The notes under the pieces were generated by a model, which saw only the letters and a program-made list of their open reading frames with translations, did not search any database and had not been told where the DNA came from. Shown here in pieces: positions 2,369 to 36,150 of a stretch of 64,000 nt of DNA (within the stretch, counting starts at the first letter, position 1; the number at the start of each line of letters is the position of its first letter). The DNA comes from a virus. Where the stretch lies: positions 1-64,000 of the IMG/VR virus record IMGVR_UViG_3300047384_000085. The stretch is one strand, 5' to 3'. Made by a program: the position numbers and the translations under genes.

Positions 2369-3358
2369 ATGGAAGGCAATTTCTTCGTTTTAAAATGGCG
2401 TGGTACGATTGGCATGGGAGATGCGATGATGGCACTTAACTGTGCTCATCATCACGCTTGGCACAAAGGATGTGTCGTCAATCTTATAATGCATTGGGAT
2501 CATGATGAAAATTATTATCATCATTTTGAAGACGAAGAAACTATCATAGATAGAATGCAGTACATACATAAATTTTATCTACATAAAAATCAAGTTAGAA
2601 TATCTCATGTATACAATCATCGGGGTGAATTTTATTATGATGAAGATGAACTCGCTTCACTAGCAAAAAACCGATATGAGTTCGAGGATCACTATTACCA
2701 TAACACCAAGGGTGCAGCTCCACCGAATCTCTGGTGTTTTAACAGAGGTCATGTCGATCCGTACAAATATATCAAGATGAAATTGATTAAACAAAAGTAT
2801 ATTTCTAATAAGATTGTAGTGTGGAGATCATTAGAGAACGCTGAACCACCTAGACGTTGGAAAAGAAAGTTGACAAATGATGACTGGGATGTTATAATAG
2901 GTAAACTCCGCCGAAGGGGATTACATGTAGTTGAGTTGACTTATAGAACACCCATAAGAGAAGCAATGTTTCATCTACAGACATGTAGAATGGCTTTAAG
3001 TTACGATGGTATGTGGCACTACGTTGCTCGAAACCTTTGTATTCCTAACACTGTAGTATCGGATGAACCGATATCTAATTATCATACACCAAGACAATAT
3101 ACGATACTTGCTCATCATGATAAGAAGAACGAGAGAAGTATTTGGAAATGGGTTCACAGAATACCTGAGTTTTTAGGTGAAGCTAAGAGAAGGTCAATTG
3201 ATCACCAAAAAGACCTGAAGAAATTTTATAGATACAAAAATCTTCAAGACTTTGCAGACGAATTTAAATCATACAAGGAAGGCCCTACACTTTTAAAAAG
3301 ATCTAGAGAAAGGGCAACCTTTAAAAAACTAGGGAAACCTATGAGAGAAATAAAATGA
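2369..3358 (+). CDS. Putative GT-B (GT9-like) glycosyltransferase
   Basis: A 329-residue protein that starts directly after the preceding stop. The N-terminal GTIGMGDAMMALN segment resembles the GxGDxxM loop of heptosyltransferase-type (GT9) proteins. Near residue 215 the segment MALSYDGMWHYVARNLCIP resembles the donor-site motif of that family (S/D-x-G-x-x-H-x-A). The C-terminal 60 residues are strongly basic. It would add a sugar to a lipid- or protein-bound glycan. The match is by motif only, so the family is tentative. It overlaps the radical-SAM gene by ATGA, which suggests translational coupling. Confidence 0.5.
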   Translation: MEGNFFVLKWRGTIGMGDAMMALNCAHHHAWHKGCVVNLIMHWDHDENYYHHFEDEETIIDRMQYIHKFYLHKNQVRISHVYNHRGEFYYDEDELASLAKNRYEFEDHYYHNTKGAAPPNLWCFNRGHVDPYKYIKMKLIKQKYISNKIVVWRSLENAEPPRRWKRKLTNDDWDVIIGKLRRRGLHVVELTYRTPIREAMFHLQTCRMALSYDGMWHYVARNLCIPNTVVSDEPISNYHTPRQYTILAHHDKKNERSIWKWVHRIPEFLGEAKRRSIDHQKDLKKFYRYKNLQDFADEFKSYKEGPTLLKRSRERATFKKLGKPMREIK

Positions 3359-4317
3359 AAATCGATAGAGCGGTAATCGAAATCAATGGAGGGTGTAACT
3401 ACTCTTGTACGATGTGTCCACAGGACGTGCGTACTGGTGGTAGAGACAAACGTTTCCTACGCAAGATGAACTTGTTAGAGTTTGAAGACAATGTTCGTGA
3501 TTGCGCTCAACATGGATTACGTGTTGTCAACCTAGAAGGATCTGGTGAACCCACACTGAATCGCAATCTACCTGAGTACATCAAGATCGTTAAGAAGTAT
3601 GGCGCCAAGTGTTTCATGTTCTCTAACGGTTTCCGTATGGAAGGCGACTTCATGAAGAAGTGTGTCGATGCTGGACTGGACTTCTATCGTTTCTCTTTCA
3701 TTGGTTATAACAAGGAGAAGTATAACGAATGGATGCATAATACAGTAGGCGGTAACTTTGATCTGATCACCAAGAACATACGTGAGATGCAAGAGTACGT
3801 AGAAGAGACTGGTTCTGATTGTGTTGTTGCGACCTACCATCTAATTACCGACAATGACAATGTAGATAATGAACTTGAGTCGTATGTTAAGTTGGTAGAT
3901 GATCTGGGGGTGAAGACCGAGATCTGGAAGATGCACAACTGGTCTGGTGTCTATGACCCAAAACAGAATACACGTAAAGGTGAGACCAAGACATGTGGTC
4001 GTCCGTTCTCACCTGACGTTGTGATTCGGGCAGGCGGACTTGATGGTAAGACTGGTGCGGTTGCACCTTGTTGTCAAGTACTGGGACAAGACGAAGAGGC
4101 AGTACTAGGTCATACGTCCGAGAATACTATCAAAGAGATCTGGGATGGGCCTGAGTACACAGAGTTACGTGATCAACATACCACAGGAGACTATCCTGAT
4201 TATTGTAAGACATGTGATTTTTTGCTTGACGATCCTGAAGTTTTAGTGTATACTAATCATGAACGAGACTTAATGAAAATGCACGGAACAGAGTTCGATC
4301 TAGATGACTACAGATAA
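3355..4317 (+). CDS. Radical SAM protein with SPASM-like C-terminus
   Basis: The 320-residue protein has the radical SAM cluster motif C-x3-C-x2-C at residues 14-21 (GCNYSCTMC), a GEP-type motif (EGSGEPTLNR), and a C-terminal group of cysteines (TCGRP, APCCQ, YCKTCDF) that fits a SPASM auxiliary cluster. Such enzymes cleave S-adenosylmethionine to a radical that modifies peptides, sugars or other substrates. Placed among glycosyltransferases, it may modify a sugar or a peptide acceptor, but the substrate is unknown. It is coupled by ATGA to the preceding gene. A radical-SAM maturase inside a phage glycan cluster is unusual. Confidence 0.85.
   Translation: MKIDRAVIEINGGCNYSCTMCPQDVRTGGRDKRFLRKMNLLEFEDNVRDCAQHGLRVVNLEGSGEPTLNRNLPEYIKIVKKYGAKCFMFSNGFRMEGDFMKKCVDAGLDFYRFSFIGYNKEKYNEWMHNTVGGNFDLITKNIREMQEYVEETGSDCVVATYHLITDNDNVDNELESYVKLVDDLGVKTEIWKMHNWSGVYDPKQNTRKGETKTCGRPFSPDVVIRAGGLDGKTGAVAPCCQVLGQDEEAVLGHTSENTIKEIWDGPEYTELRDQHTTGDYPDYCKTCDFLLDDPEVLVYTNHERDLMKMHGTEFDLDDYR
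4226..4254 (+). promoter_or_regulatory. Sigma70-like promoter inside radical SAM gene
   Basis: TTGACG at 4226 and TATACT at 4249 have a 17-base spacer and lie within the last 100 bases of the radical SAM gene, about 50 bases upstream of the next start codon. It fits an internal promoter for the downstream transferase genes. Confidence 0.55.
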
Positions 4318-6040
4318 ACCAAAAGTAATTATTATACGTAATAAAGGAAGTCGTCTTTCCGAATCTCTTGCATTGAAAACAGCTAAAAGTTGGAATGACA
4401 GAGGTTATAAGACAGAACTCTTTGATGCTATAACACCTGACGATTTCGAAAAATACAGTTACCTAGATTTTGGTGATGGTATTCTAGCACATCCAACCAG
4501 CATAAGAAATCCCGAACACCCTTGGGGCCCGATGAGTACAGAATACACTAAAGGGACTGTCGGACTTAGACATATGAGTGGCGGAGAGAAAGCGGTTTAT
4601 TATTCACATCTAGAAGTTTTGAAATTAGTTGTAAAAAGAGACGAACCTCATTTCGTAGTAGAACATGACGGAATCCTTGAAGGTGATCCCGAATCTATAA
4701 AGTATGAAGACTACTTGTACGTTCAACTGAGTAATATGATATTGAGAGCTGGTTATTGGCATCCATTAATGGCTAAAGAGGTTCTTGATTTTATTGACGA
4801 TAAAGGATTGTGTATCAATCACCCATTACCTAAAGAGTGGTACACAAGAAACGATATCAAAGCATCTTCTCTATTGAACACTGACGGTTTTATTACGATG
4901 GTGTTATCATACCTTGCTAGATCAGATTTAACCCCAGACAGAAAATTATTAAGTAATATGAAACTTTGTAGTCCATGCATGGAAAACTTTTTAAATAAAA
5001 GACCGCACAGAAGAAACTTACTTAAAAACTTCACATCTTATGAGATGCTTGTTGGAGCTCATAATCTGCCTGGCATTATAGAACATAGAAACTATAAACC
5101 GATAACGAAGAGAACTGCCGTTATGGTTAGTGGCGCATATCATAGTTATCTTGATATTGATGATTTAAAACAAAGTGTGTGGTCAATTCTAACTATGTAC
5201 AAAGGTTGTGATATTTTCTGGCAGACTTGGGACACACCTGAACAAAGAAAGATTTTCAATAATCTTAGAAGAAACATGCCTATAAACGTTATCTTTGTCC
5301 CAGAACCAGAACCCTGTAAGTATGATCCCTACGGACTTTTGCTCGAAAGATTCCCAGACAGAAAAAGGTCAGACTGGATTCGTCTGGGTTTAAAGGGAAT
5401 ATCTGCTAAAATAATGAGATATAAAGATGGTCGTAGTAGAAAAGATCCACCTTTAACTGCTCTGAATCAACAGTTATCTTTTGATACTCAATGGAAAAAT
5501 GTACCTAAAGGTTATGATTTTTACGTTAGGACTAGATGGGATGTACACGCTAAAGGTGTCGCTGATTATCATGTTTTTCAAGAACTCTTGGAGTTGGCAG
5601 AAGATCGTGTGATTGGCATAGGACTCCAAGCGGGTAAGAAAGATCATTTCCAACTCCGTAACTGGAAGAACGATAAACGTGAACACGCAGAGTATAGAGC
5701 GATAAGAGACCTCAGAAAATCTGTTAAAGAACACTTAGAAAAGGGTATTTACTGTCTGTTAGACTCACCAGAATGTGACGAGGTGGGTATAGGAAAGGGA
5801 CAGAGATGGGAAAGTTTCTTAAATGATTTCGCAATAATCTTTAAAGAAAGTGACCTAGAAGGTGTCGATATTGAAAAACTAAATAATAAGTGCAAGTTGA
5901 TGCCAGTAGAGTATGGTTGGCATCAAATATTTTGTACAAAACGAAGTCACTACAATATTGATGGTGTTTTTGCTTTACGAAAGAACATTGATTTTAGACA
6001 TTCAACTTTTAAGAGACTAAAAAAGAATAAATTATTATGA
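4304..6040 (+). CDS. Two-domain putative glycosyltransferase
   Basis: This 578-residue protein looks like two transferase modules in one chain. The first ~245 residues resemble family GT25 (LPS biosynthesis transferases): a YYSHLEVLKL segment followed by FVVEHDGIL, the usual place of the acidic donor motif. Residues from about 268 (KRTAVMVSGAYHSYLDIDDL) form a second module with DIFWQTWD and a GYDFYVRTRWD motif. The stand-alone protein at 9489 has matching DVFTSTW and YDMCVRMRFD motifs. It overlaps the previous gene by 14 bases and the next by ATGA. The acceptor is unknown. Confidence 0.6.
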   Translation: MTTDKPKVIIIRNKGSRLSESLALKTAKSWNDRGYKTELFDAITPDDFEKYSYLDFGDGILAHPTSIRNPEHPWGPMSTEYTKGTVGLRHMSGGEKAVYYSHLEVLKLVVKRDEPHFVVEHDGILEGDPESIKYEDYLYVQLSNMILRAGYWHPLMAKEVLDFIDDKGLCINHPLPKEWYTRNDIKASSLLNTDGFITMVLSYLARSDLTPDRKLLSNMKLCSPCMENFLNKRPHRRNLLKNFTSYEMLVGAHNLPGIIEHRNYKPITKRTAVMVSGAYHSYLDIDDLKQSVWSILTMYKGCDIFWQTWDTPEQRKIFNNLRRNMPINVIFVPEPEPCKYDPYGLLLERFPDRKRSDWIRLGLKGISAKIMRYKDGRSRKDPPLTALNQQLSFDTQWKNVPKGYDFYVRTRWDVHAKGVADYHVFQELLELAEDRVIGIGLQAGKKDHFQLRNWKNDKREHAEYRAIRDLRKSVKEHLEKGIYCLLDSPECDEVGIGKGQRWESFLNDFAIIFKESDLEGVDIEKLNNKCKLMPVEYGWHQIFCTKRSHYNIDGVFALRKNIDFRHSTFKRLKKNKLL

Positions 6041-14455: not shown

Positions 14456-15070
14456 ATGAGAGTAAATGTTTTAGGTAATGGTGACCATAACTTTCTGTTT
14501 AAGAGAGGGACTGAAGGCAAGTTACTAATTTGTAACATGCCACCATTTGCGATACCACCTAATGAAGTATATGCTTCGTGTATGGTGGACTTCAAGATGA
14601 TGGCTGCACTGACTGAAGGTCAGTTTAGACTTGATCAATATGATTGGGTTCTAGGTACTCGTCCTCGTAAGTGGATGGAGATGCAACCGAACTTCTACCT
14701 AAAATACTCGCAGAACATTCGGGGATTCTGGCAAAGAGTTCCTGAGTATGCGGGCAATGCAACGAACTTCAGTTGTGGTCACATGGCAGTTGATTATGCT
14801 TGTGGTAAGATGAAAGCGACTGAAGTTCACATCTATGGTTTCGATTCTATCTTTGATCTAAATCTTAGAAGTGTGACCGACTTAATTCTTGAGAGTGATC
14901 GATCTAAGAACAACTCGTTCAGAATCGCAAACAACTGGAGACCAATATGGCCTGAGTTGTTCAAAGAATATTCTAATGTTAAGTTCTATCTGTATCATGG
15001 TCATGATAATGCAAAGATACCGTTACCAGAAAACGTTGAAGTTATTGTTAAAACAAAAAAGGATATGTGA
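14456..15070 (+). CDS. Possible sialyltransferase/DUF115-like protein
   Basis: The 204-residue protein starts MRVNVLGNGDHNFLF, a Rossmann-like nucleotide-binding beginning. Near residue 120 it has SCGHMAVDYACGKMKATEV followed by HIYGFDSIFD. The pattern G-N-G, then G-x-x-A-x-x-A-x-x-x-G and Y-G-F-D, recalls bacterial GT42 sialyltransferases and DUF115 motility accessory factors that handle nonulosonic acids. The resemblance is by eye and weak, so other nucleotide-sugar enzymes are possible. Its stop codon is followed within two bases by the GTG of the next gene. Confidence 0.35.
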   Translation: MRVNVLGNGDHNFLFKRGTEGKLLICNMPPFAIPPNEVYASCMVDFKMMAALTEGQFRLDQYDWVLGTRPRKWMEMQPNFYLKYSQNIRGFWQRVPEYAGNATNFSCGHMAVDYACGKMKATEVHIYGFDSIFDLNLRSVTDLILESDRSKNNSFRIANNWRPIWPELFKEYSNVKFYLYHGHDNAKIPLPENVEVIVKTKKDM

Positions 15071-19673: not shown

Positions 19674-20039
19674 ATGGCAAAAGTAGTAAAAGCGACAAAG
19701 GGTGATAGTAAAGGCGAACCTATCATTGAAAACGAACAGACTCAATCTGGAGAGGGAATACTTCATCGACATATGTCGCAAAAATTACCAAAACTAAAAC
19801 CAGAAGTTGCTGAGGCGGTAACAGTTGAAGTACTGCGTGGTCTATATGTAGAACATGTCAAGTTCTATGTGAAAAATAAAGACGTGAGTACTGCTGATAA
19901 TTTACTAACTAAAGAAGAAGCTAAACAACATGAAGAAATTCTAAAATCTTTAGAGGGCGCTATCGCTTATTTAGATCAAACTGATCAATGGTTGAAGGAT
20001 TTACATGCAGGAAAATTTAGCGAACCAACTAACGACTGA
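19674..20039 (+). CDS. Hypothetical helical protein
   Basis: The 121-residue product has a basic N-terminus, a polar stretch, then several helices (AVTVEVLRGLYVEHVKFYV and EEILKSLEGAIAYLDQTDQW). No motif is recognised. It overlaps the following oxygenase gene by 35 bases and starts two bases after the previous stop. Confidence 0.55.
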   Translation: MAKVVKATKGDSKGEPIIENEQTQSGEGILHRHMSQKLPKLKPEVAEAVTVEVLRGLYVEHVKFYVKNKDVSTADNLLTKEEAKQHEEILKSLEGAIAYLDQTDQWLKDLHAGKFSEPTND

Positions 20040-20700
20040 AGGTTACGTTGTTTTAAAAAACTTTATTCCAAAGGATATCATCGATATCACTTTAGATAAC
20101 TGGAAATGTTTTGAAAAGAACTCGGATTTGTTTAGGGGTTTTAAATATATTGGTTTTACAGAACGTAGTCTTGGATACGGAAATACGCCAGTAAAATCTT
20201 TGTATAAGAGTGTTGGTAACTACTGTTTCCCGCCCTCTATTTCTATGCATAAGTATTTAAAAAAACGACTGAAGGAAGTCTTAGATTTAGAATTAGAAGA
20301 GACGTATTCCTTTGCAAGAAAATATAAGAGAGATGCTTGGCTAGAATCTCACATAGATAGACCTGACTGTGAGATTAGTGTAACGATGTGTTTGGATTAC
20401 AAATCTGACAACGGAAACCCTTGGAAATTCTGGTTAGGTAAAAAGGGGTCTGAATACAACTTAAAAAAGACTCAGATGAAAACCTTGCAAGAACGTGAAC
20501 AAATTGGGTTTAAATCGCTTGACTTAGGTATAGGAGATGTGTTATTATATCTAGGTGTAGAAGTTCCTCACTGGAGAGACTGTTTTCAAGGGGAATATTC
20601 CTATCATATGTTTTTACATTTCTACGATGTCAATTCTGGCAGAACTAGAGAAGGATATGATGGGCGAAAAAATAGTTACGACATGATTAAAAGTAAATAA
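20005..20700 (+). CDS. 2OG-Fe(II) dioxygenase-like protein
   Basis: The 231-residue protein has the iron triad pattern of 2-oxoglutarate oxygenases: H-x-D in WLESHIDRPDCEISVTM near residue 115, and a distal His in YLGVEVPHWRD near 190. YSYHMFLHFYD follows as the last core strand; the 2OG-binding basic residue is not clear. The fold resembles the group of phage and marine oxygenases near prolyl hydroxylases, which hydroxylate proteins or small molecules. ATG 20005, behind AAGGA, lies within the previous gene. The target could be a protein side chain or a sugar. Confidence 0.7.
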   Translation: MQENLANQLTTEGYVVLKNFIPKDIIDITLDNWKCFEKNSDLFRGFKYIGFTERSLGYGNTPVKSLYKSVGNYCFPPSISMHKYLKKRLKEVLDLELEETYSFARKYKRDAWLESHIDRPDCEISVTMCLDYKSDNGNPWKFWLGKKGSEYNLKKTQMKTLQEREQIGFKSLDLGIGDVLLYLGVEVPHWRDCFQGEYSYHMFLHFYDVNSGRTREGYDGRKNSYDMIKSK

Positions 20701-21702: not shown

Positions 21703-22314
21703 ATGGCTGGTGATGAGAGTTTAAAAAAACACATAGCTTATCGGCAGTCTGTCGATAAGATTTACAGATCGACTAAGTTGCTTGACGAAGAAACTGTAAC
21801 CGAAATGTGTGATGATTTCTTATCAGATTCTTTCTCCAAAAGACAGAGCGCCGTAGTTATTAACCAAGGAACCAAAGACGTAGAAGGTATATATCATGAT
21901 TGGAGAACAAGTAAAACTTTCCAAGGTGTATCCACAGTTTTCTATTCTGATTTCTGTGAACAACTAGAAGATTGGGTCGGTGACGGAACCAAGGTCAATC
22001 AATTAGATATACTACTCTATGAGAGAGGTGACAAGTTTGATATTCACCAAGATACATTATTAGATGAACCACAACAACGAATATGGTCTACAACAACTGT
22101 GCTTCATTTATCGGATGATTATGTTGGTCATGGATTAGTAATATATGATTCGAATGGCGAAGATGATCCAAAAGGTAATCCTGAAATACAAAAATTCGTT
22201 CCAAGACAACATGTTGGAGATACAATCATCTTCAAGAGTGATCAATGGCATGAAGTCAAACCGATCGAACAAGGCACTCGCATAGTTGCGGTTGCATGGT
22301 TGGGTTACAAATAA
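21703..22314 (+). CDS. Prolyl-4-hydroxylase-like 2OG-Fe(II) oxygenase
   Basis: The 203-residue protein has a clear P4H core: LLYERGDKFDIHQDT with the H-x-D iron ligands near residue 115, a TTTVLHLSDDYVGHGLVIY strand pair, then VGDTIIFKSDQWHEVKPI with the distal His near 184, and TRIVAVAW with the 2OG-binding Arg. Such enzymes hydroxylate proline or other residues, and phage versions are common in marine T4-like genomes. The substrate is unknown. It lies between gp33 and the promoters of gp32. Confidence 0.85.
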   Translation: MAGDESLKKHIAYRQSVDKIYRSTKLLDEETVTEMCDDFLSDSFSKRQSAVVINQGTKDVEGIYHDWRTSKTFQGVSTVFYSDFCEQLEDWVGDGTKVNQLDILLYERGDKFDIHQDTLLDEPQQRIWSTTTVLHLSDDYVGHGLVIYDSNGEDDPKGNPEIQKFVPRQHVGDTIIFKSDQWHEVKPIEQGTRIVAVAWLGYK

Positions 22315-23370: not shown

Positions 23371-23398
23371 AAGGGGGAACTTCGGTTCCCCTTTTTTT
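23371..23398 (+). terminator. Rho-independent terminator after gp32
   Basis: A GC-rich stem (GGGGAAC with GTTCCCC) closes a TTCG tetraloop and is followed by seven T. It lies 22 bases after the gp32 stop and ends at the convergent tape-measure gene. On the other strand the T run is only three bases, so it should act mainly on + transcripts. Confidence 0.92.
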
Positions 23399-25634
23399 AT
23401 ACTCCGTATGCCTGATCTAGAGGATCTACTGCCGGCATGTTTTGGTTCATAATAATTCCTTGAGAAGAGTTATTATTTACTACGTTGGTAGATGGTGCGA
23501 CAATCATTGATGCTTTTTGCGCTTCTGCTAACTGTTGTCGTTTTAAGTCAGCTTGTTTCATCTGTTCTTCAGAAAGTCTTGACCCAGTTCTTTCGGGTAA
23601 CTTAACTTCCAATTTGTTCTCAAGAGGTTTTCCGTCAATGCTTTCTCTTTTGTTATAGGTTTCAACTAACTCAGTGTTTAATGTTCCGATCAATTCTCTT
23701 AGACTAGACTCATCTTGATCGATATCATTTCTCATCCATTGTAACTTTTCTAACTGTTTGTCACTAAGATCGGCCATGGTTTTGAGATTACCGTCTTGGT
23801 CTCTATTGACATCAACGTTAGTGAATTGTCGTTTTCCGTCTACATAAGTATCACCATAACTAGAGGGCATTAACATTTCGTTGACTGTATAGTCGTACTC
23901 AGATTCAGTTAACTTCTTAGACTCGAAATCTTTAAGGTTTTGAAGATTTCTTAATACCTTTTCTTCTTTTTCACGGATCGCCTGATCATCTGAGAAAAAG
24001 GCTTCTAACTTAGATCGGTCACCCGATTCCTTAGCTTCTTCTGACAATCTCATCATCTCGTCCATTCTTTCTTGCATTACAGGATCAGAAAATTCAAATA
24101 ATGGTTCTTCTCCCTGTTCCTCCGAACCGCCTCGTCTATTATTACGTTCCTGTTTTTTAGAATATTTTTCTTCTTTGGGAGGAACAGCAACTCCTCCCCA
24201 CTCGTAGACGGAGTCTGGAATGATTGCAGCTGCAAGACTATTTGGGTCAGGCAACAGACTCATGAAAAATTCTTTTATCTTTTGTTTTATGTTACTTAAA
24301 CCGTCAAACAAAGGTTTCATAAATGATTTCGTATCTTTAAATTTATTGACAATACCCTTTCCCATGTTCGAGAAGAATGCACCTATTCCCCTTCCAATAT
24401 CACCGAAAAATTTACTAACAATTTTCGCACCATCTATGATTTTGGCATCTGCTTTTCTAAATTTATCGGCAAACCAATCACCGAGACCAAATATACCATC
24501 GGTAAATGCATCAATAATGTTGTCAAAGAGTTTTTTGAAACTGAAGTTGTCCAACATTTTTTCAAATTGTGTAAATCCTAGTTTACCAGCGATCCAACTG
24601 ACACCACTCTTTAATAGATCTAAAGGAACCATTACTAGATTACCAATAACCTTCTTGACGCCGCCCATAAGACCGCCAAGAATACCAGCAACAAATCCTT
24701 TGTCTTTATACTTTTGAAACCCATCAAAGAATCCTGTGACACCGTCATAGATAGACATAAGGATGGCTATGGGAAAGGCAATTTTTGAACCGATAGTCTT
24801 GAACACTCCAAACATTTTACCAAAAGTACTACCGAGAAATTTGAAGATTTTTCCTATCTTGCTTGCACCCTGACCTATAGATTTGACTCTGTTACCTATA
24901 CCACTAAACGATTTACCGATACTTGAGAAAACTTCGCCAATAGGTTTGAAAACTCTCTTAAAACCATTGATACCTCTTTGTACCTTTAATCCTACTTTGG
25001 AAATAGATAGTTTTTTTAATGATTCTCCTAGATTGAAGAAGAACTTGTTAATACCAGTAAGTCCTTTTTGTGTACTTACAAACGCCCCAGTTATCGCCGA
25101 ATTCATTGTTTTTAATCCTTTGAATCCGGCTGTAAGAGACCTTCCCATGTTCACGAAGAAAGCGGGAATGTTTTTGATGGTTTTAATGAAAGATCCAATA
25201 GCCTTTCCAATAGACTTTAGTATTGGTTTAAACCGTTCTGGCAACAAAAGTCTTGCTATCTTGCCGCCTAAAAATGCAATCGCCTTCACGAATCCAGAAA
25301 CAATACCAACAGCAAGACCAGTCACCGCACCAGCGATACCCATTAAGATTTGACTGATACCGAATAACGCACCGCCAGAATAATCCTCACCTTTAATAGG
25401 TGCCTGACGATTATCACTAGACTTACCTGTCGGTTTTTCTGTCTTATCTTGAGATCTTTGACGATCAAGTGCCATACCATCTAGCATACTTTCAAGTGCA
25501 TCTGCGGTACGCTTCTGGTCTGTTATTAGAGTTTCGTCACGTTTCTCTTGTCGTTTTTCGACATCTATCTGACGTTTAAGATTCTCTTTATTTGACTTTT
25601 GTAATAGTTGGTCAAAGTTTTTTTGGTTTGCCAT
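23397..25634 (-). CDS. Tape-measure-like tail protein (gp29 position)
   Basis: The 745-residue protein has a charged coiled-coil start (LLQKSNKENLKRQIDVEKRQ), a polar linker, then from about residue 90 a long hydrophobic, glycine-rich section with membrane-like helices (ILMGIAGAVTGLAVGIVSG) and many short helical repeats of the GKxxxxI type, and a charged C-terminal third. This is the usual look of tail tape-measure proteins. It lies directly behind gp26/gp51, as tape-measure genes lie behind the G/GT chaperones in lambda. In T4 the equivalent is gp29. At about 1.5 angstrom per residue it would fit a tail near 110 nm. It is convergent with gp32. Confidence 0.7.
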   Translation of the reverse strand: MANQKNFDQLLQKSNKENLKRQIDVEKRQEKRDETLITDQKRTADALESMLDGMALDRQRSQDKTEKPTGKSSDNRQAPIKGEDYSGGALFGISQILMGIAGAVTGLAVGIVSGFVKAIAFLGGKIARLLLPERFKPILKSIGKAIGSFIKTIKNIPAFFVNMGRSLTAGFKGLKTMNSAITGAFVSTQKGLTGINKFFFNLGESLKKLSISKVGLKVQRGINGFKRVFKPIGEVFSSIGKSFSGIGNRVKSIGQGASKIGKIFKFLGSTFGKMFGVFKTIGSKIAFPIAILMSIYDGVTGFFDGFQKYKDKGFVAGILGGLMGGVKKVIGNLVMVPLDLLKSGVSWIAGKLGFTQFEKMLDNFSFKKLFDNIIDAFTDGIFGLGDWFADKFRKADAKIIDGAKIVSKFFGDIGRGIGAFFSNMGKGIVNKFKDTKSFMKPLFDGLSNIKQKIKEFFMSLLPDPNSLAAAIIPDSVYEWGGVAVPPKEEKYSKKQERNNRRGGSEEQGEEPLFEFSDPVMQERMDEMMRLSEEAKESGDRSKLEAFFSDDQAIREKEEKVLRNLQNLKDFESKKLTESEYDYTVNEMLMPSSYGDTYVDGKRQFTNVDVNRDQDGNLKTMADLSDKQLEKLQWMRNDIDQDESSLRELIGTLNTELVETYNKRESIDGKPLENKLEVKLPERTGSRLSEEQMKQADLKRQQLAEAQKASMIVAPSTNVVNNNSSQGIIMNQNMPAVDPLDQAYGV

Positions 25635-25640
25635 TACTGG

Positions 25641-25835
25641 TTATCCGTTTTGTTGGTTTTGTCTTTCTATTTTTTCGTTCTCTTCCTTGATGTGTTCCAA
25701 TAACATACTAACATATATCTCCCTCTCCCATGGCATCATCATGTCCAGTTCACTTAAACTATAATGATGATGTTGCATCATTGCAAAATTCGTCTTGTAA
25801 TGGTTTACAAGAGTCTCATGAGAAAGGTTTAGGAT
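25641..25835 (-). CDS. 51: gp51-like extension, read by -1 frameshift from gp26
   Basis: A 64-codon open frame with no good start codon at its head overlaps the end of gp26 and runs to six bases before the tape-measure ATG. It reads SLSELDMMMPWEREIYVSML and then LEHIKEENEKIERQ, the pattern I recall for gp51 hub-assembly proteins of marine T4-like phages. Entry is provided by T TTT TTA at 25841-25835 in the gp26 frame: a -1 slip gives a gp26-gp51 fusion of about 301 residues. The alternative is an independent start at one of the internal ATGs near codon 19, but no ribosome site precedes them. By analogy with lambda gpGT it would chaperone the tape measure. Confidence 0.7.
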   Translation of the reverse strand: MLNLSHETLVNHYKTNFAMMQHHHYSLSELDMMMPWEREIYVSMLLEHIKEENEKIERQNQQNG

Positions 25836-26545
25836 AAAAAATCTGATATCCCTTTCATTTCACGTTCATTCTCAGTTTCACATTTTAAACACTTGAATTT
25901 CGCTGTGTGTTTCATTGATGGAAGGTCACCGATATACTTGGTCACTCTTTCAAACTGTTCACTAGTCATCGAATCGATGAAGTCTAGTAATTCTTTCTTG
26001 GATACATCCTTTGCATCTGTGCGTTCTTCTTCAAGTCCGTCTTTTACTATGATGGAGTCTATACTTGATGCCACCATTTCAAGACCTAACTTCATCTGAT
26101 CACCCTGTAAGTCAGAATCCATAATTGCCTTGTAAGGCGGATATTTCATCTCTACTGTAATCTGGTCAGTCAGATCAATAACTGTTTCTCTTTCCCCAAT
26201 TTCAACATTAATCTGTGATAGGTCAACAACATACTCATGTTGCGTACCACATTCCTTACACTTCAACAATACTGTCGATTTCTCACCAGCTGATTTGGAA
26301 CGTATCTGTGTAAACATATACTCGACATCAAATGTTGCCAAGTCATGTACATTAATGTTTTCTTGAACACATGCTTCGATAGTAGAGACAATTGCTTTTA
26401 ATGTTTGGTTCTGGTTACCAGACTCAAACGCCATCATCAATACCTTCTCTTCCTTTACAAGATACGGTCGGAAACTGACTCGTTGTCCTGTAGAAGGAAC
26501 CGATAATTCATATATCGGTGCTGTGTTTAACTTTGGTAATGCCAT
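25829..26545 (-). CDS. 26: gp26-like baseplate hub / tape-measure chaperone
   Basis: The 238-residue protein resembles T4 gp26: an N-terminal beta segment (RVSFRPYLVKEEKVLMMAFE), a central CxxC in LKCKECGTQHEYVVDL near residue 125, EMKYPPYKAIMD, and a second CxxC in KFKCLKCETENE near the end, so a zinc ribbon formed by the two pairs is likely. In T4 gp26 acts in hub assembly. Its last codons contain the slippery site for the gp51 frame. It lies 35 bases behind the gp54-like gene in the minus-strand operon. Confidence 0.75.
   Translation of the reverse strand: MALPKLNTAPIYELSVPSTGQRVSFRPYLVKEEKVLMMAFESGNQNQTLKAIVSTIEACVQENINVHDLATFDVEYMFTQIRSKSAGEKSTVLLKCKECGTQHEYVVDLSQINVEIGERETVIDLTDQITVEMKYPPYKAIMDSDLQGDQMKLGLEMVASSIDSIIVKDGLEEERTDAKDVSKKELLDFIDSMTSEQFERVTKYIGDLPSMKHTAKFKCLKCETENEREMKGISDFLS
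25835..25855 (-). promoter_or_regulatory. Programmed -1 frameshift site
   Basis: Minus strand: AAAGGGA (25855-25849), seven bases, then T TTT TTA (25841-25835) in the gp26 reading frame, with the gp26 stop one codon later. The heptamer fits X XXY YYZ exactly, and the Shine-Dalgarno-like AGGG placed upstream resembles the stimulator of E. coli dnaX. A 7-bp hairpin (25794-25811) lies 23 bases downstream, probably too far to act. Confidence 0.7.
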
Positions 26546-26579: not shown

Positions 26580-27284
26580 TCAAAATATACTTAGACCACC
26601 GCTAAGTATGTTATCAAACAGACTCTTCGCATCTGCGGATTCTGCTTCCCAATCTTTGAACTTGAAAGATATTGTAATTTCCATAGTTGCATCGGTTTGG
26701 TCGTCACCCAACTGTATGTCACTCATTGTAGTTGGAATTGCATCGATCAGTCTACACTTGTGTGACCAATCATCTTTAGTACCTATATCCATATCAATCT
26801 CACCTTGGGACAGTTTAAATGGCCCAATGTCTGGCAAACGATTACGGATAGTCGGGTTTATTTTATTCAAGAAAGGTATGTCTCGTTGAAACAACGGAAT
26901 TGTCGCACCCTTCTTCATTGTCTCTATTTTTATATCTCGTGCATAGTCTTTGTAATATCCAACCGAACCTTTATTGAACATGACTTTTTGCCAGTCCATA
27001 AAGTAATTCTTTATGAGGTGCGAAGATGTTACATGAAAAGTCATAGTTACTTCTGATACACTCATTTGGTTTACGATGTCATACTTATACATTCCAACCT
27101 GTTTTTCAAGTGTACCCAACTGACGGCCAGGCATCAACACTGCCTTACACAAAAGATTTAAATCTTTGGTCTCATACCCCTTTATCGGAGGTAATGTTAC
27201 ACGGAAAAGGTTCGGTCTCTGGAAATTTTCATTCTTTCCTATAAGACCTTTCAGTTCTTCGATGTCGCCTATTCTGTTACCCAT
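26580..27284 (-). CDS. 54: gp54-like baseplate tail-tube initiator
   Basis: The 234-residue protein has features of the tail-tube fold family (gp19/gp48/gp54): NLFRVTLPPIKGYETKDLNL followed by LCKAVLMPGRQLGTLEK near residues 45-60, a YDIVNQMSVSEVTMTFHVT strand region, and a C-terminal MEITISFKFKDWE strand. In T4, gp54 and gp48 cap the hub and start tube polymerisation. The choice of gp54 over tube protein gp19 rests on its position with gp26, gp51 and the tape measure. It overlaps the preceding gene by eight bases. Confidence 0.65.
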   Translation of the reverse strand: MGNRIGDIEELKGLIGKNENFQRPNLFRVTLPPIKGYETKDLNLLCKAVLMPGRQLGTLEKQVGMYKYDIVNQMSVSEVTMTFHVTSSHLIKNYFMDWQKVMFNKGSVGYYKDYARDIKIETMKKGATIPLFQRDIPFLNKINPTIRNRLPDIGPFKLSQGEIDMDIGTKDDWSHKCRLIDAIPTTMSDIQLGDDQTDATMEITISFKFKDWEAESADAKSLFDNILSGGLSIF

Positions 27285-27882
27285 CTATCTTTTGCCTTGA
27301 ATCGTAGAATACTTTCTGAGAGTTTGCCTTACGGAACTGTGCAGTCGGTAAGAATGTTGCAATCTCCCACTCTGGTGTTTGAACCTCCGCTAACCGACTT
27401 TTAACATGTGCGGTCAGATAGTGTTTCAAACACGGTTTATAGTACCGCATCTTTGCGGTCTTCTTTAACATCTTATACGTCAACGCCATCCTTGCGGACT
27501 TTGTCATCTTCGCACCGAGTACATCCATCAATGCATCCAGAAACTTCGCACGAAGAATCGGAGGCAAGTAATGTAAGTTTAGACCGTAGAACCCACCTTC
27601 TGCTGGGCCAACAATAATGACCAACGGAAACGCATCGTAGTATGGTAATGTCTTCTTATGTTTTGGATCATAGAAAAACATCTGCATAGTACCGATTAAT
27701 CCTGAGTCGTCAGCCTTTGCTGCAGCACGTCTCTTCAACGGATCTTCGTTCATTAACTGTTCACGATTAATTGAACGTAAGTTAGACGATTTCTTTCTAA
27801 ACCATTCACGACTTTCTTTGGTACGAGGTGTTACGCCCGCACGGAATGCCTGTAGTTCTAACCTGTTGAATAAATTACTCAT
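27277..27882 (-). CDS. Conserved virion assembly protein next to gp4
   Basis: The 201-residue basic protein carries TPRTKESREWFRKKSSNLRS, MQMFFYDPKHKKTLPYYDAF and a segment reading VGPAEGGFYGLNLHYLPP, a set I recall from marine T4-like phages beside gp4. In T4 the neighbours of gene 4 include the DNA end protector gp2, but I cannot claim that identity. Its richness in Lys/Arg fits contact with DNA or a head-tail joint. A late promoter lies five bases before its start codon, in addition to read-through from gp4. Confidence 0.6.
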   Translation of the reverse strand: MSNLFNRLELQAFRAGVTPRTKESREWFRKKSSNLRSINREQLMNEDPLKRRAAAKADDSGLIGTMQMFFYDPKHKKTLPYYDAFPLVIIVGPAEGGFYGLNLHYLPPILRAKFLDALMDVLGAKMTKSARMALTYKMLKKTAKMRYYKPCLKHYLTAHVKSRLAEVQTPEWEIATFLPTAQFRKANSQKVFYDSRQKIDG

Positions 27883-27896: not shown

Positions 27897-28385
27897 TTAT
27901 TTTTTACGTTTTTTAAAAGGTTTTAAAGGTTTTAATGGTTTTGTTGACTTAGGCATGATACCCATCGCAGTTAACTCTTTCTCAGTCCAAATCTCAAACA
28001 ACCACCCCCGATCTTTAGCATATTCAGATGCAGCTTTCCATTTATTCTGATTCTTGACATAGGTGAACGATTCTGTTAACATACGTTTAGTACGTCTACC
28101 TTTCATCTTGGGTAGTTGGGTTTCTTTGAAAGGTTTTACTTCTATCAACTTGGTCGTGCCATTCTTGTACACAATAACGAAATCCATGAAGTAACGGTGA
28201 TATTTCCGATCTACTTCATATAGATAAGGTATGACGATCTCTTCAGATCCCCACTCGACAATGTTAGAGTCATTATCACAGTGGCGCATAACATGTCTTT
28301 CCCATAGTGATCGATACACTATGTTGGTCACGTCCCCCAGATACTTCTCTGGATTTTTTGGTTTATATTTTCCCGAATATGCCAT
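27897..28385 (-). CDS. 4: gp4-like head completion protein
   Basis: The 162-residue protein begins MAYSGKYKPKNPEKYLGD and continues VYRSLWERHVMRHCD, matching T4 gp4 (MGYSGKWKT..., CRSLWERKFCKYCD). YFMDFVIVYKNGTTKLIEVKP has the D...E-x-K arrangement of PD-(D/E)xK nucleases. The C-terminus is a basic Lys/Pro tail. T4 gp4 (formerly 50/65) completes heads before tail joining, and the nuclease-like core may trim packaged DNA. It heads the minus-strand operon, with a variant late promoter about 40 bases upstream. Confidence 0.9.
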   Translation of the reverse strand: MAYSGKYKPKNPEKYLGDVTNIVYRSLWERHVMRHCDNDSNIVEWGSEEIVIPYLYEVDRKYHRYFMDFVIVYKNGTTKLIEVKPFKETQLPKMKGRRTKRMLTESFTYVKNQNKWKAASEYAKDRGWLFEIWTEKELTAMGIMPKSTKPLKPLKPFKKRKK

Positions 28386-30564: not shown

Positions 30565-31901
30565 GTGTACAGAACGACAATCAATCGCAATACAAAATCA
30601 CTCAGGCGTACATAACGTCTGAGTCTTTAGGTGGTGATGTCGATCCTTCCGCCAGAGTAAACATAAACAGTAGTATTGTTGAATTGGTATTTTTTGAGAG
30701 TCTAGAAAAAGCATATATTTCTGGTCAGATTGCAGTATCGGACGATCAAGGTTTCGTTGATGCTATTGGATTTTCTGGAACAGAAAGATTGTTTATCGAA
30801 ATGGCAACTGAAGACCCTTCTTTACAACCAGTAATGTCTAGATCATTTATTATGACTAGTATCGATCAATCAATTAAATCAAACGATGCTGGGCAAGCCA
30901 GTATATATGTATTTACTATTATCGATGAACATGCATTTTTGAGTAAGACTAAAAAGGTTAGTAGGTCGTTGACCGATTCTCTTGAAAATGAGATAATGAA
31001 GTTATGTATTCAGGACATGAAAAAGAAGATTGATGTTTCTTATCTTTACCCTTCTATTCAAAACAACGTTAAAGTACTCATACCTTATCTGCATCCACTT
31101 GAGGCATGTGAGTGGTTAAGAGATCGTGCGACTACAGTAAATGGTTGTCCATTGTTCTTGTATGCTTCTATCCACGACACCAATTTAAGATTGGGTAGTC
31201 TGGATAAGATGTTGGAACAAAAACCTTGGAACGAGAAACTTCCATATTTGTATTCGCCATCAAACGTAAGGAGGACAGAAGACAAGTCTCCGTTGCATCG
31301 TACAATGCAAGTACAAACTATGCGATCTAGTAAAATGCAGAATACAATGAAACAACTTATGTCGGGTGGTATTGGTGCTATCTATAATAACACAAATTTA
31401 GGAACAGGTCAAGTTACTTCTCAACGTTTTGATGTCACTAAAGTTATTAAAAAGTTAGTGAATAATGAAATTATACCTAACAACAAAACTCAAAATGTTT
31501 ATCCCGAAGAATTTAAAATCGATGATAAGTCTTTACATAATCAAGAAGCAAAAATATTTCATCAGATCACGTCTACTGGCACATATGGGACATGGAAGAG
31601 TTATCATGATGAGTTAAAGCCAGGAACATTTACTGTGAAGGTTGGTAACTACGCTATTCGTAATATGTTATATAAAAATATGTTTGAGGTTACTGTGCCT
31701 GGAGCAGGGTTTATTGTTTCGAAAGCAAGTGTTGGTGATATTGTAACAATCAATACCTTATCAGACGATGGTGACAACACAACAAGGGCGACATTTGATC
31801 AATTACGATCAGGTGACTTTTTGATTTATAATGTCAGACACACATTCAAGAATACTCGACATGATGTTGTCATGTCCGTATGTAAGTTGGTGAGGGGATA
31901 A
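30561..31901 (+). CDS. 27: gp27-like baseplate hub protein
   Basis: The 446-residue protein has the features of gp27/gpD-type hub proteins: a beta-rich first part (SIVELVFFESLEKAYISGQI), a central LHPLEACEWLRDRATTVNGC and PLFLYASIHD, and a late beta domain (GDFLIYNVRHTFKNTRHDVV). T4 gp27 (391 aa) forms a trimeric torus at the hub that carries gp5 below and the tube above. The position directly before the gp5-like genes supports this. ATGA overlap with gp53. Confidence 0.75.
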   Translation: MSVQNDNQSQYKITQAYITSESLGGDVDPSARVNINSSIVELVFFESLEKAYISGQIAVSDDQGFVDAIGFSGTERLFIEMATEDPSLQPVMSRSFIMTSIDQSIKSNDAGQASIYVFTIIDEHAFLSKTKKVSRSLTDSLENEIMKLCIQDMKKKIDVSYLYPSIQNNVKVLIPYLHPLEACEWLRDRATTVNGCPLFLYASIHDTNLRLGSLDKMLEQKPWNEKLPYLYSPSNVRRTEDKSPLHRTMQVQTMRSSKMQNTMKQLMSGGIGAIYNNTNLGTGQVTSQRFDVTKVIKKLVNNEIIPNNKTQNVYPEEFKIDDKSLHNQEAKIFHQITSTGTYGTWKSYHDELKPGTFTVKVGNYAIRNMLYKNMFEVTVPGAGFIVSKASVGDIVTINTLSDDGDNTTRATFDQLRSGDFLIYNVRHTFKNTRHDVVMSVCKLVRG

Positions 31902-32788
31902 TGAAGGCAATTCAAACAGAATACTACGGTGATAATACTCGTTGGTTTGTGGCAGATGTCATTGACCACACACCCCCATACGGATATGAAGGTCGTGTCA
32001 AGATTCGTATCCACGGTATACACAATCCATCGACAAGAGAAATACCTCAGAACGATCTACCTTGGGCCCAAGTGGTATTACCCACAACCGAAGGTGGTGT
32101 GTCTGGTCTAGGTAGAACACCCAGACTCACTTCAGGTGCAACCGTATTTGGATTCTTCATGGACGGAATCGCATCTCAGGTTCCTTTGGTTGTAGGGTCA
32201 ATACCTAAGACAGAATATCCTACTCGTGTACAGAGACAAGTAGAGTTTAGTACTATCCAAGAAAGGATTGATCAAGAAGAAGTTTTTTATGAACAAGAGA
32301 TACAAGTTATCGATTCAGCTAAGGTTGAAGATACTGAGTATGATTTTGTATACGGAGACACTGTCGAATCACGTAAACTAGAAGCAATAAAATATTTTAT
32401 GAATGCTGGTTACAACCTAAATCAATCAATAGGTATGGTCGCTTGTCTGTTAAATGTGTCTAATTTAAATAAAACTGGAATAGAAGAACAAACAGAACAG
32501 AATCCTCTGGGTATTGCTGGTTGGAAAAATGAACGAAAACTTCTATTGAAACGATTCTCGAATGACTGGAGAAAGTTCAGTTCTCAGTTGGTGTTTATTA
32601 AGTACGAACTAAATAGTACTCAAGCAGCTGCGAACATACGACTAAAAAGAACCGACACTCTAGAGAAAGATTCACCAAACAGTTGTCAGAGAATTTTTGG
32701 AAAATATTATCTTGGTTTTAAAAAGGATGATCAATTCCAAAGTGTTGATAAACTTGTTGTCGGTCTTCAAACTTTGGTAGGCGAATAA
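31901..32788 (+). CDS. gp5-like spike: OB fold plus lysozyme-like domain
   Basis: The first ~105 residues correspond to the OB domain of T4 gp5: NTRWFVADVIDHTPPYGYEG, RVKIRIHGIHNP, DLPWAQVVLPTTEGGVSGLG and FFMDGIASQVPLVVGS. From about residue 155 a region resembles phage tail lysozymes (LEAIKYFMNAGYNLNQSIGM, later NPLGIAGWKNERKLLLKRF). Where those enzymes have a catalytic Glu (A-E-S-x-F-N-P) this protein has LLNVSNLNKTG, so it is probably inactive. There is no beta-helix, unlike T4 gp5; that part is encoded by the gene at 34711. Confidence 0.75.
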   Translation: MKAIQTEYYGDNTRWFVADVIDHTPPYGYEGRVKIRIHGIHNPSTREIPQNDLPWAQVVLPTTEGGVSGLGRTPRLTSGATVFGFFMDGIASQVPLVVGSIPKTEYPTRVQRQVEFSTIQERIDQEEVFYEQEIQVIDSAKVEDTEYDFVYGDTVESRKLEAIKYFMNAGYNLNQSIGMVACLLNVSNLNKTGIEEQTEQNPLGIAGWKNERKLLLKRFSNDWRKFSSQLVFIKYELNSTQAAANIRLKRTDTLEKDSPNSCQRIFGKYYLGFKKDDQFQSVDKLVVGLQTLVGE

Positions 32789-34714
32789 ATGGCGTTAAGT
32801 AAAGAACAGTTAAACGATAGGTTGAACCATAACCAAAAAGGTCAAAGTTTTGGTACAGATGTATTGTCCAATGCTATCGACCTAAAGGAAAAGAACTTCG
32901 CAAAGAACGCAACTCTTCTTGGTGATGGGCCTGGCAGTATACATGCTGGTATCGAATCACTGGAAAGTAAAGTAGATAATGCAGGGAGTACATCTACTGG
33001 TGATGCGATGTGTTCCTTCGGTGACGAGGTTACTGGTATCTCTGGTGTACCCGACCCAACAAAGATAGAAGTTGATTTATCCGTTCCAGTATTTACCGTT
33101 TCTTCTAATACACCTAGTTCCGATTCTGCTGTAGAGACAACAATAACAGCAGGCGCAACAGAGAATCAACCTGTATCATCGGTAGTACAACAACTTACAG
33201 GACTAGGCGCACCTACGGCAAAACTAGAAACACAGACTCTAGGCGGTTCCTCATTAGATGCGATTGATGCGACTGCAAGTGATGCGACTGGTAAATCAAA
33301 TGTATTGAAAGATAAGATTCAAGGTGTGGCGGCGGAAACCAAGGCCGCATCTGGTACTGGTGGTGGCGCATCTGGTGGACTAGGTGCTGTCACAGGTGCG
33401 TTGAAGAAAGCGGGAGATATGATATCAGAAGTCGCAAAAGAAGTTTCGTCTATTCCTTCTTTAAATCCTAATGCGCCTGATCTCAGTAATGTGAAAAACT
33501 CTGTAGGATCAATACCAGATCCATCTAGTGTGGGTAATCTAAATTCCGTTTCTGTATCGATAGGAACGATTGATGACGAGATTTCTAACAAGATAAACCC
33601 TTCGGCCGACAAGTTAAATGAGTCGCAGAAAGAACAGGATGGATTTTTTAATCGTAACCCAGTCAAAACTGGTCTAGGTCTACTACAAGATCTTGTTGAA
33701 GACATAACTAAAAACGTTACATCTAAAATTAAAACATTTACCAGTAATGCAAAACTACCTAATACCGCAGTTTCCGATATTGCCACCAATGCCTTGAATA
33801 CTCAAAGTGAGGAAGATAGAGACAAGGCAACTCAAGACATCATTAGAAGAGATACGACATTTAGTCCAGAAATGAAAGCAGTTGTCGATAACGTACCTGA
33901 AGGATTTTCCAATTCGGATTTCGTGGCAGATCTAAAAGTGAAAGCTGAAGCAGCGAACATCCCAGATGAGGAAATACAATTAGTGCAGGGTCGGGTCTTT
34001 CAGGTTCAAGATGAATTGCAACTGTTGGATAGTACTATCTCTGGTAGTTTGATAAAAAGTTCAGACGACTTTGTAGTTGAAGAATATGATCTAAGTGAGA
34101 CACTAACTAAATTTGATGGTCAACAAACTGCGTTTGATACATTCACTTATGTTGATTCCAAAGAAGAACTAGGCGCAGAGTTTAGAAAAATACAAAGAGT
34201 TATAACACAGTTGATTGTCCACGCATCGGATACATACACAAACCAAAACATTGGTTCCGAAGAATTACATATATCCCACAATCAATCAGGCGTTGATGGA
34301 CTACAGTATCATTATGTTATCAGAAGAGATGGTCGTTTACAGAGAGGACGACCATTAGATACCGTAGGTGAGTCTAGTAAACTTAGAGGACATAATATCC
34401 AGTCTATAGATATCTGCATTGTGGGCGGACTAAACTGTTCTACTGGTTGTGAGAATCCAGATCAGTATCGTTCGTCACAATCATTTACTCGTGAACAGAT
34501 GACCACACTAGAATCGTTATGTGAAGCGTTCTACCGAAGATATCATGGTGGACAAGTGTTTGGACACAACGAAATCGAACCACAAGTTACTGACCCATAC
34601 TTCGATGTTTCCCAGTATGTTGAAACGATGTTCCGTAAGAAATCTGTTTATGTAGATCTATTTAAAGACCAATCGTTAACACCAAATGAATTGATAACGA
34701 AGAAACCACAATGA
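32789..34714 (+). CDS. Baseplate protein with C-terminal amidase_2 domain
   Basis: In this 641-residue protein the first ~440 residues are Ser/Thr/Ala/Gly-rich, of low complexity and probably extended or fibrous. The last ~165 form an N-acetylmuramoyl-L-alanine amidase of the T7-lysozyme type: QLIVHASDTYT with the first zinc His near residue 478, LQYHYVIRRDGRLQRGRP with the catalytic-site Tyr, VFGHNEIEP with the second His, and TDPYFDV with the third ligand. It starts right after the OB/lysozyme-like gene and overlaps the needle gene by ATGA. It probably takes over wall cutting during DNA entry. Confidence 0.85.
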   Translation: MALSKEQLNDRLNHNQKGQSFGTDVLSNAIDLKEKNFAKNATLLGDGPGSIHAGIESLESKVDNAGSTSTGDAMCSFGDEVTGISGVPDPTKIEVDLSVPVFTVSSNTPSSDSAVETTITAGATENQPVSSVVQQLTGLGAPTAKLETQTLGGSSLDAIDATASDATGKSNVLKDKIQGVAAETKAASGTGGGASGGLGAVTGALKKAGDMISEVAKEVSSIPSLNPNAPDLSNVKNSVGSIPDPSSVGNLNSVSVSIGTIDDEISNKINPSADKLNESQKEQDGFFNRNPVKTGLGLLQDLVEDITKNVTSKIKTFTSNAKLPNTAVSDIATNALNTQSEEDRDKATQDIIRRDTTFSPEMKAVVDNVPEGFSNSDFVADLKVKAEAANIPDEEIQLVQGRVFQVQDELQLLDSTISGSLIKSSDDFVVEEYDLSETLTKFDGQQTAFDTFTYVDSKEELGAEFRKIQRVITQLIVHASDTYTNQNIGSEELHISHNQSGVDGLQYHYVIRRDGRLQRGRPLDTVGESSKLRGHNIQSIDICIVGGLNCSTGCENPDQYRSSQSFTREQMTTLESLCEAFYRRYHGGQVFGHNEIEPQVTDPYFDVSQYVETMFRKKSVYVDLFKDQSLTPNELITKKPQ

Positions 34715-36150
34715 CAATACAAAACGATAAAGACAAACTAGGACAAAATCCTGCTAGAGACAAAACTCTTGGCGTCCCATTAGACGGTTTCCAAGATCCT
34801 ACAGGTGAGTTTCCCAAGATAAACTACCACTACTCAAACTCTATAAACTATGCGGCTCGTGGTTTTGAAGTAAACGAATTATATCTTGGGGGTGGTGATT
34901 TCAATGTATCACTCAACCTAGAAGATCAACAACCTTCACAGTATCCATTCAATCAGGTTCAAGAGACTGCATCTGGTCATGTGATCGAATACGATGACAC
35001 CCCAGGCGGAGAACGTATTCTTATCAAACACCGTAAAGGTGGTGGTATTGAAATGCGTGCCGATGGTTCTATCATTATATCATCCCCGAACAATAAAGTC
35101 GAGGTGACTGGTGGAGACAATACGGTCATCGTAGAAGGTGATGCAGAGATGGTCTATAAAGGTAATCTGAACCAGACGGTTACAGGTGACTGGAATATGG
35201 ACGTGGGTGGTAACCACAATCTTAACATACATGGACACAATAAGCAAACAGTATTGTTGAACAAAAGAACCGAAGTATGTGGCAACACAGAACATATCAC
35301 TAAACAGTCTGCCTCATACAAGACTGTAGAGAACAAGACAGAACTCGTGTTGGGTAATAACACCGAGTGGACTAAAGGATATTCTAAGGAACATGTTGAG
35401 GGAGAACTCAATGTGTTTACTGACAATCGTTTAATCATGACTGCAAAGGACGAGTACATTCAGACCGCACCAGTAATGGCAATCACAGGTGCAGAGTTAT
35501 CGGTCATGGGTATGAAAGGTGTGATCGGGGGTGAACAGGTAGAGATAACATCACCTGTTTACATGGGGCCAAAAGGTGCGGTTCCATTTGCATCTGGTGC
35601 CGCCTTCTATGGATCATTCCACGGACAGGCAACAGAGGCGATTAGATCATACAATTCAAATGTTGCAAAACACGCTGAAGTATCGGATACGACTAATGGT
35701 CAGTCATATGGTGAAGCGCTTACTTCAGGCGGTAAACATGGTAAGAAAAACAAAGCAGCTGTCGAAACACAAGAGACTCCAACACCGAAGAAACCAGTCC
35801 CACTTGCAGATGCTATCGGTGCAATGATGACTATGGGTGACTTCTCTGTACGTACCGTGACTGTAGATGCTGAAGATGTATTGAAGAACAAGATACTTCT
35901 ACGTGATGACTTCGAAGGTCTCTTTGAGAAGATACCTACAACACAAGAGATTCGATCTACTATTCGTGATACTGCTAACCGTTCTTTGATTGGAAACAAG
36001 ATGGTCGGTGAAGGTAGACTAAATGCACAATACGACAATTCGAGTCCTCCGAAGATTGGTAGAACTGCATCTGCAAAACAGTCTTTACGATTTGGTCGTA
36101 TACCTATCGGCAATTCTATTGGTAGCAGAGGTAAGAGGTTCAAAGGATGA
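34711..36150 (+). CDS. gp5 C-terminal beta-helix spike needle
   Basis: The 479-residue protein matches the C-terminal part of T4 gp5: GHVIEYDDTPGGERILIKHR (T4 GHIQEFDDTPGQERYRLVHP), then short regular repeats such as VTGGDNTVIVEGDAEMVYKG and NLNQTVTGDWNMDVGG that build the three-stranded beta-helix needle. A domain of about 150 residues follows (from GKKNKAAVETQ) with no T4 counterpart. The needle pierces the outer membrane at contraction. Here it is a separate polypeptide, whereas T4 makes it by proteolytic cleavage of gp5. Confidence 0.85.
   Translation: MTIQNDKDKLGQNPARDKTLGVPLDGFQDPTGEFPKINYHYSNSINYAARGFEVNELYLGGGDFNVSLNLEDQQPSQYPFNQVQETASGHVIEYDDTPGGERILIKHRKGGGIEMRADGSIIISSPNNKVEVTGGDNTVIVEGDAEMVYKGNLNQTVTGDWNMDVGGNHNLNIHGHNKQTVLLNKRTEVCGNTEHITKQSASYKTVENKTELVLGNNTEWTKGYSKEHVEGELNVFTDNRLIMTAKDEYIQTAPVMAITGAELSVMGMKGVIGGEQVEITSPVYMGPKGAVPFASGAAFYGSFHGQATEAIRSYNSNVAKHAEVSDTTNGQSYGEALTSGGKHGKKNKAAVETQETPTPKKPVPLADAIGAMMTMGDFSVRTVTVDAEDVLKNKILLRDDFEGLFEKIPTTQEIRSTIRDTANRSLIGNKMVGEGRLNAQYDNSSPPKIGRTASAKQSLRFGRIPIGNSIGSRGKRFKG

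Follow-up and report, generated by a model that had tools for sequence, protein, structure and literature searches.

Gp26 and gp51 as a probable frameshifted tail assembly chaperone gene in an uncultivated marine T4-type virus

The junction between gp26 and the tape measure gene

In a 64,000-nt stretch of viral DNA (positions 1 to 64,000 of IMG/VR record IMGVR_UViG_3300047384_000085; hereafter the window), gp26 and a second reading frame that overlaps it in -1 lie immediately 5' of the tape measure gene. Are these two genes, or one gene that is read in two ways? The window is part of a 64.7-kb record from an uncultivated marine virus of the T4 type (Kyanoviridae-like). The nearest named phage found, C48C1, was 45% identical in gp26, and the clade of the window has no close isolate. 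The features that bear on the question, all on the minus strand, were as follows.

27897..28385, minus: gp4 head completion/head closure protein (phrog_218, E = 4.7e-57)
27277..27882, minus: gp2 DNA end protector (phrog_429, E = 1.4e-50)
26580..27284, minus: tail-tube/gp54-type protein, directly 5' of gp26 (phrog_45 tail tube, E = 1.1e-29)
25829..26545, minus: gp26, putative TAC-N, zero-frame product of 238 aa ending in MKGISDFLS and the stop (phrog_150, E = 8.8e-59)
25849..25855, minus: AAAGGGA, Shine-Dalgarno (SD)-like, 7 nt 5' of the heptamer (from the sequence, and from GGR enrichment in relatives)
25835..25841, minus: slippery heptamer T TTT TTA in frame 0, context GA[T TTT TTA], in-frame and then TCC TAA
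25829..25831, minus: gp26 stop TAA, one codon past the heptamer (from the sequence)
25822..25827, minus: CCTTTC (CCTYTC in relatives), nucleotide motif shortly past the slip (from conservation in relatives)
25641..25835, minus: gp51, putative TAC-C domain, -1 frame, 64 codons from the ATC after the slip to TAA (phrog_634)
23397..25634, minus: tail tape measure protein (TMP), 745 aa, ATG at 25634 (phrog_4200 tape measure, E = 5.1e-8; several further families of tape measure proteins also matched)

The product of gp26 matched Pfam T4_baseplate (PF12322) with E = 1.1e-54 and 185.8 bits against a curated cut-off of 24.5, indicating that it is a member of the T4 gp26 family, and the -1-frame peptide matched phrog_634 ("baseplate hub assembly catalyst") with 98.5 bits (E = 5.8e-28). 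Two CxxC zinc-ribbon-like pairs in gp26 were both invariant in a 35-sequence alignment, and the gp51 C domain was predicted as helices. A Foldseek search of the PDB with the gp26 model (pLDDT 86.9) returned no significant match; the non-significant ones included the HK97 tail assembly chaperone gp13 (2ob9; E = 1.1, probability 0.66, 63 columns at 4.7 A) and 3fgx (E = 1.3, probability 0.82).

A sequence-only reading of this DNA had placed T TTT TTA one codon before the gp26 stop and had described a 64-codon gp51 frame that ends six bases before the tape-measure ATG. Both descriptions agreed with the coordinates. The heptamer (25841..25835) is followed by TCC TAA, the open stretch of the -1 frame spans 25859..25641, and its TAA (25643..25641) is separated from the TMP start by 6 bases. 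A -1 slip would give a gp26-gp51 fusion of 301 aa, and the earliest ATGs of the -1 frame are found at 25781 and 25778, 18 codons past the slip. In the larger ORFs of the window, T TTT TTN occurred in-frame twice in a total of 19,616 codons. When the last eight residues of gp26 were resampled with local codon usage, an in-frame TTTTTT arose with P = 0.17; the heptamer of this one sequence could therefore be due to chance, a single sequence proves nothing, and it is conservation in relatives that settles the matter. No second frameshift of the same kind was found among four other in-frame homopolymer heptamers checked in the window (ORFs 4304-6040, 14456-15070, 3355-4317, and 20005-20700), because in each the -1 frame runs into a stop immediately or in no more than four codons.

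Two further observations concern the plus strand of the window. Matches to gp5-type hub/tail lysozyme were divided between ORFs 31901-32788 and 34711-36150, which are separated by an ORF with an amidase domain (32789-34714), and ORFs 20005-20700 and 21703-22314 were judged by eye to be 2-oxoglutarate/Fe(II) oxygenase-like.

Conservation of the heptamer and of the -1 frame

Three sets of relatives were compared, namely 79 IMG/VR relatives with a complete gp26 (near relatives), 31 near relatives with less than 90% nucleotide identity around the junction (the non-redundant set), and, for a wide comparison, 210 loci from IMG/VR and named phages, which formed 102 gp26 clusters at 80% amino acid identity. 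T TTT TTN was present in 79/79 near relatives, located one or two codons before the gp26 stop or abutting it, and gp51 lay in the -1 frame in all 77 in which it could be located (L029 and L033 were without gp51, and the contig of L033 ends there). In the wide comparison, the heptamer was found at the junction in 97 of the 102 clusters, over diverse T4-type groups, and the gp51 part was in the -1 frame in 101/101 clusters where it was visible, the remaining cluster being the truncated contig L033. The carriers included Kyanoviridae cyanophages, Pelagibacter phages, Schizotequatrovirus, Cinqassovirus, Nanhuvirus, Menderavirus, Innesvirus, Oliverocinquevirus, Pseudoalteromonas phage XG4, and Ochrobactrum phage OC, and the hosts of heptamer phages included Vibrio, Aeromonas (Ah1, Aeh1), Cronobacter, Stenotrophomonas, Rhizobium, Agrobacterium, Pseudoalteromonas, Ochrobactrum, and Pseudomonas (Milchi).

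Constraint was also seen at the level of codon choice. In the non-redundant set, the slippery Phe codon was TTT in 31/31 loci (17.3 expected from codon usage) and the codon before it ended in T in 31/31 (19.0 expected); in a scan of wobble-base columns, the top z scores fell on the slip columns and on the two codons just past the slip. We regard this comparative evidence as decisive in placing the heptamer beyond chance. In addition, in all 29 loci that could be tested, a long ORF of the tape-measure type started no more than 40 nt from the gp51 stop. Among eight downstream ORFs tested outside the window, five matched tape-measure families, either strongly, more than once, or as one match among others, and three gave no family match. 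An alignment of related phages had been proposed as a check in the sequence-only reading; in the relatives aligned here, the heptamer, the -1 frame, and the tape-measure-like synteny were kept while flanking codons varied.

Alternatively, the heptamer could be incidental and gp51 a small protein in its own right, whose translation starts at an internal ATG (25781 or 25778) or re-initiates past the gp26 stop. Databases usually call a short stand-alone gp51 from an internal start or leave it unannotated, and some distant groups have an ATG that overlaps the gp26 stop (TAATG/TGATG) and is annotated as the gp51 start. However, conservation of the -1-frame protein among relatives extended to its very first residues (LSHDxLVNHYKTNF; L, S, and H invariant), whereas the first ATG of this frame mostly stood at codon 19-20, and no start codon common to the relatives was found near the head of the frame in the window's clade. 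Differences between relatives in the -1 frame numbered 10633 at codon position 3 versus 5914 and 3151 at the other positions. Since the conserved residues precede any common ATG, the head stretch is read in -1, with the slip as its conserved entry. The claim that the gp51 frame has no usable start at its head was thus borne out, with conserved residues beginning 18 codons before the commonest first ATG. Furthermore, the 97 clusters that keep T TTT TTN include groups with a TAATG overlap, and T4 gp51 is one long chain over most of the fusion (see below). A separate gp51 is therefore very unlikely in our judgment, and many of the gp51 starts in database records are probably not used.

A fusion could also arise if RNA polymerase, not the ribosome, slipped on the T-run and produced mRNAs with one base more or less. 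The run comprises six to eight T, and transcriptional realignment on homopolymers is known (PMC5009743). The codon phase, in contrast, is fixed as X XXY YYZ, which tandem tRNA slippage requires, and a Gly GGR codon stands at an SD-like distance from the run. Moreover, the run is mostly six T followed by C (TTTTTTC in 66/97 clusters), and six T is short for polymerase slippage. We consider polymerase slippage very unlikely at this junction.

The best explanation, to which we assign a probability of roughly 0.93 from the comparisons above, is that gp26 and the sequence behind it constitute a single tail assembly chaperone (TAC) gene with two readings (TAC-N and TAC-NC). Most ribosomes would stop at the gp26 TAA and release the short form, TAC-N, of 238 aa. 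We infer that in a minority of ribosomes tRNA-Phe and tRNA-Leu move back by one base on U UUU UUA, perhaps aided by pairing of the upstream AAAGGGA with 16S rRNA. The slipped ribosomes would read 64 further codons to give the long form, TAC-NC, which corresponds to gp26-gp51 (301 aa). By analogy with lambda gpG/gpGT, both forms would coat the TMP encoded immediately downstream, and the C-terminal domain would recruit tail-tube subunits; the chaperone role, and a fixed ratio of gp26 to gp26-gp51, may be expected on the same analogy.

The clusters without T TTT TTN belonged to one Ackermannviridae-type group, comprising Ackermannviridae (Vi01, LIMEstone1), Pseudomonas phage Cygsa01, and Vibrio phage D506. 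The C domain was again in the -1 frame in these phages and no X XXY YYZ was present; the junction reads (A/C)TTTTC, one codon, and TAATG or TAATT, as seen in the gp26 stop regions of L097 (2807), L102 (2302), L103 (2305), and L104 (2221), with ATTTTC or CTTTTC. This group could use slippage on U UUC or stop-start re-initiation. As a separate observation, the junctions of L091, L093, and L095 carry the T TTT TTN heptamer together with a TAATG/TGATG stop-start overlap, and groups of this type could also make a stand-alone gp51 domain by re-initiation.

Elements flanking the slip site

The sequence-only reading had likened AAAGGGA, seven bases 5' of the heptamer, to the signal of dnaX. Its position was correct, while the likeness was partial. 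Like the dnaX site of E. coli, the present one has an X XXY YYZ heptamer and, upstream of it, a candidate SD-like purine element; in dnaX, however, the two are 10 nt apart and a hairpin follows the heptamer, whereas the spacing here is shorter (7 nt) and a conserved downstream hairpin was not found. In the non-redundant relatives, the Gly codon within the element was GGR in 23/31 loci versus 11.5 expected, and GGG in 10 versus 2.8 expected. The energy of the anti-SD duplex was better than the codon-resampled mean in 29/31 loci, by a margin of only about 1 kcal/mol. These data suggest that AAAGGGA probably helps the slip.

A second motif, CCTYTC, starts 7 nt past the heptamer. The leading C falls at the wobble position of a codon whose residue varies (N/C/S/A/T); C stood there in 29/31 loci, compared with 9.2 expected, and the Leu codon of the motif was CTY in 28/31, compared with 11.2 expected, indicating that conservation of this motif in the window's clade is real at the nucleotide level. 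AAAGGG and CCTTTC could form six pairs in the window, and the pairing register differed between loci. Shuffling gave P = 0.0045 for the Watson-Crick count and 0.09 for stem length, values in which relatedness is not controlled, and covariation was weak. One doubtful idea, which we regard as unlikely, is that two sequences together tune slippage in the window's clade, namely the upstream SD-like RRGG and a complementary downstream CCUYUC that resembles the 16S anti-SD. Pairing would then mask the purines in free mRNA, and they would become accessible only while a ribosome is translating the site. To our knowledge, no such bipartite element has been described for other phage frameshifts.

RNAalifold, applied to the 31 non-redundant loci over four ranges, detected no conserved downstream stem, hairpin, or pseudoknot. 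A window hairpin at 25812..25793 (minus strand; eight pairs), which starts some 22 nt beyond the heptamer in a stretch with z = -3.15, had been considered as a conserved stimulator and was dropped, as it was not recovered as a conserved structure in the relatives.

Relation to T4 and to known frameshifted chaperones

Homology to T4 was assessed with a profile of the fusion (296 positions; Z = 278) and 1000 shuffled gp51 sequences. T4 gp26 matched the profile with E = 2.2e-16 (Z = 278) and aligned to within 2 residues of its C-terminus, i.e., as the short form. T4 gp51 matched with E = 3.2e-12 (Z = 278) over positions 76-278 of 296, a range that takes in the C domain. Its score against the fusion profile was 40.0 bits, compared with 6.6 bits for the best of the 1000 shuffles, and no shuffled sequence exceeded 8.3 bits with any profile. 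When the C-domain profile was used alone, gp51 was the only match (E = 1e-6). Thus, T4 gp26 resembles the short form and T4 gp51 most of the fusion, indicating that T4 encodes the two forms as separate genes; that the long product equals the short product plus a C-terminal domain is supported by T4 gp51, a homologue coded as one chain. In T4, unlike in the window, genes 26 and 51 are separate and divergently oriented, and the terminal FF of gp26 is coded TTC TTT, which leaves no slippery site. Phage 44RR2.8t has the same two-gene arrangement as T4. Duplication may have replaced the frameshift in the T4 lineage, although the direction of this change is itself a matter of inference.

Cyanophage gp51 has been described as about 20% of the T4 length, and gp51 of cyanophages and marine vibriophage as being without the first ~200 residues (Sullivan et al. 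2010, PMC3037559). Judged by sequence, the "truncated" cyanophage gp51 is the frameshifted tail of the fusion, and the first ~200 residues would be missing because gp26 supplies them via the frameshift. T4 gp26 and gp51 are both classed as hub assembly chaperones; T4 gp51 is essential and absent from virions (PMC3004832). A protein that is essential yet absent from the virion fits the chaperone reading.

Similar layouts are found in other tailed phages. In lambda, both gpG and gpGT bind the tape measure protein, and the T domain binds the tail tube protein (PMC5009743). The window is like lambda in having a short protein with a frameshift extension right before the tape measure gene and a C domain in the -1 frame; it is unlike lambda in its heptamer and in its larger N part with two CxxC pairs, so that the two are likened by layout and not by homology. 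The lambda heptamer is G GGA AAG, and that of the myophage P2 (gpE/gpE+E') is T TTT TTG. Like the virus of the window, P2 has a contractile tail and, ahead of its tape measure gene, a T-run heptamer for a -1 slip, but it has no T4-type baseplate, and this likeness is again one of layout only. The sequence-only reading had described the locus as a lambda G/GT-like layout within a T4-type hub operon. The first part, the lambda-like frame relationship and TMP synteny, stood and appears well supported by the comparison; the second did not, since the gene set here is gp4, gp2, a tail-tube-like gene, gp26, and TMP, versus 51-27-28-29-48-54 in T4.

The gp26-gp51 frameshift of T4-type phages is already published and is not new in kind. 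The tail assembly chaperones of T4-like phages were identified by Vladimirov, Gautam and Davidson (Virology 2022, 566:9-15), according to the account given in PMC10885494, which also relates from it that frameshifting is absent in some T4-like phages, where a short gene and a long gene are found instead. The present locus agrees with that work in the gene pair (26/51) and in the short and long forms, and differs in that the IMG/VR record comes from an uncultivated virus whose clade has no close isolate. The 2022 study reportedly found the frameshift to be kept in several T4-like groups, with T4 using 26 and 51. Our literature searches found no other report of a gp26-gp51 frameshift beyond it. 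The CCTYTC motif past the slip and the group without the heptamer are possibly new.

Because the general point was published in 2022, the value of the present analysis lies in its extension and in the correction of annotations. The textbook T4 hub proteins gp26 and gp51 have long been catalogued as hub assembly chaperones with no assigned mode of action; in many T4-type viruses they would correspond to one frameshifted chaperone gene.
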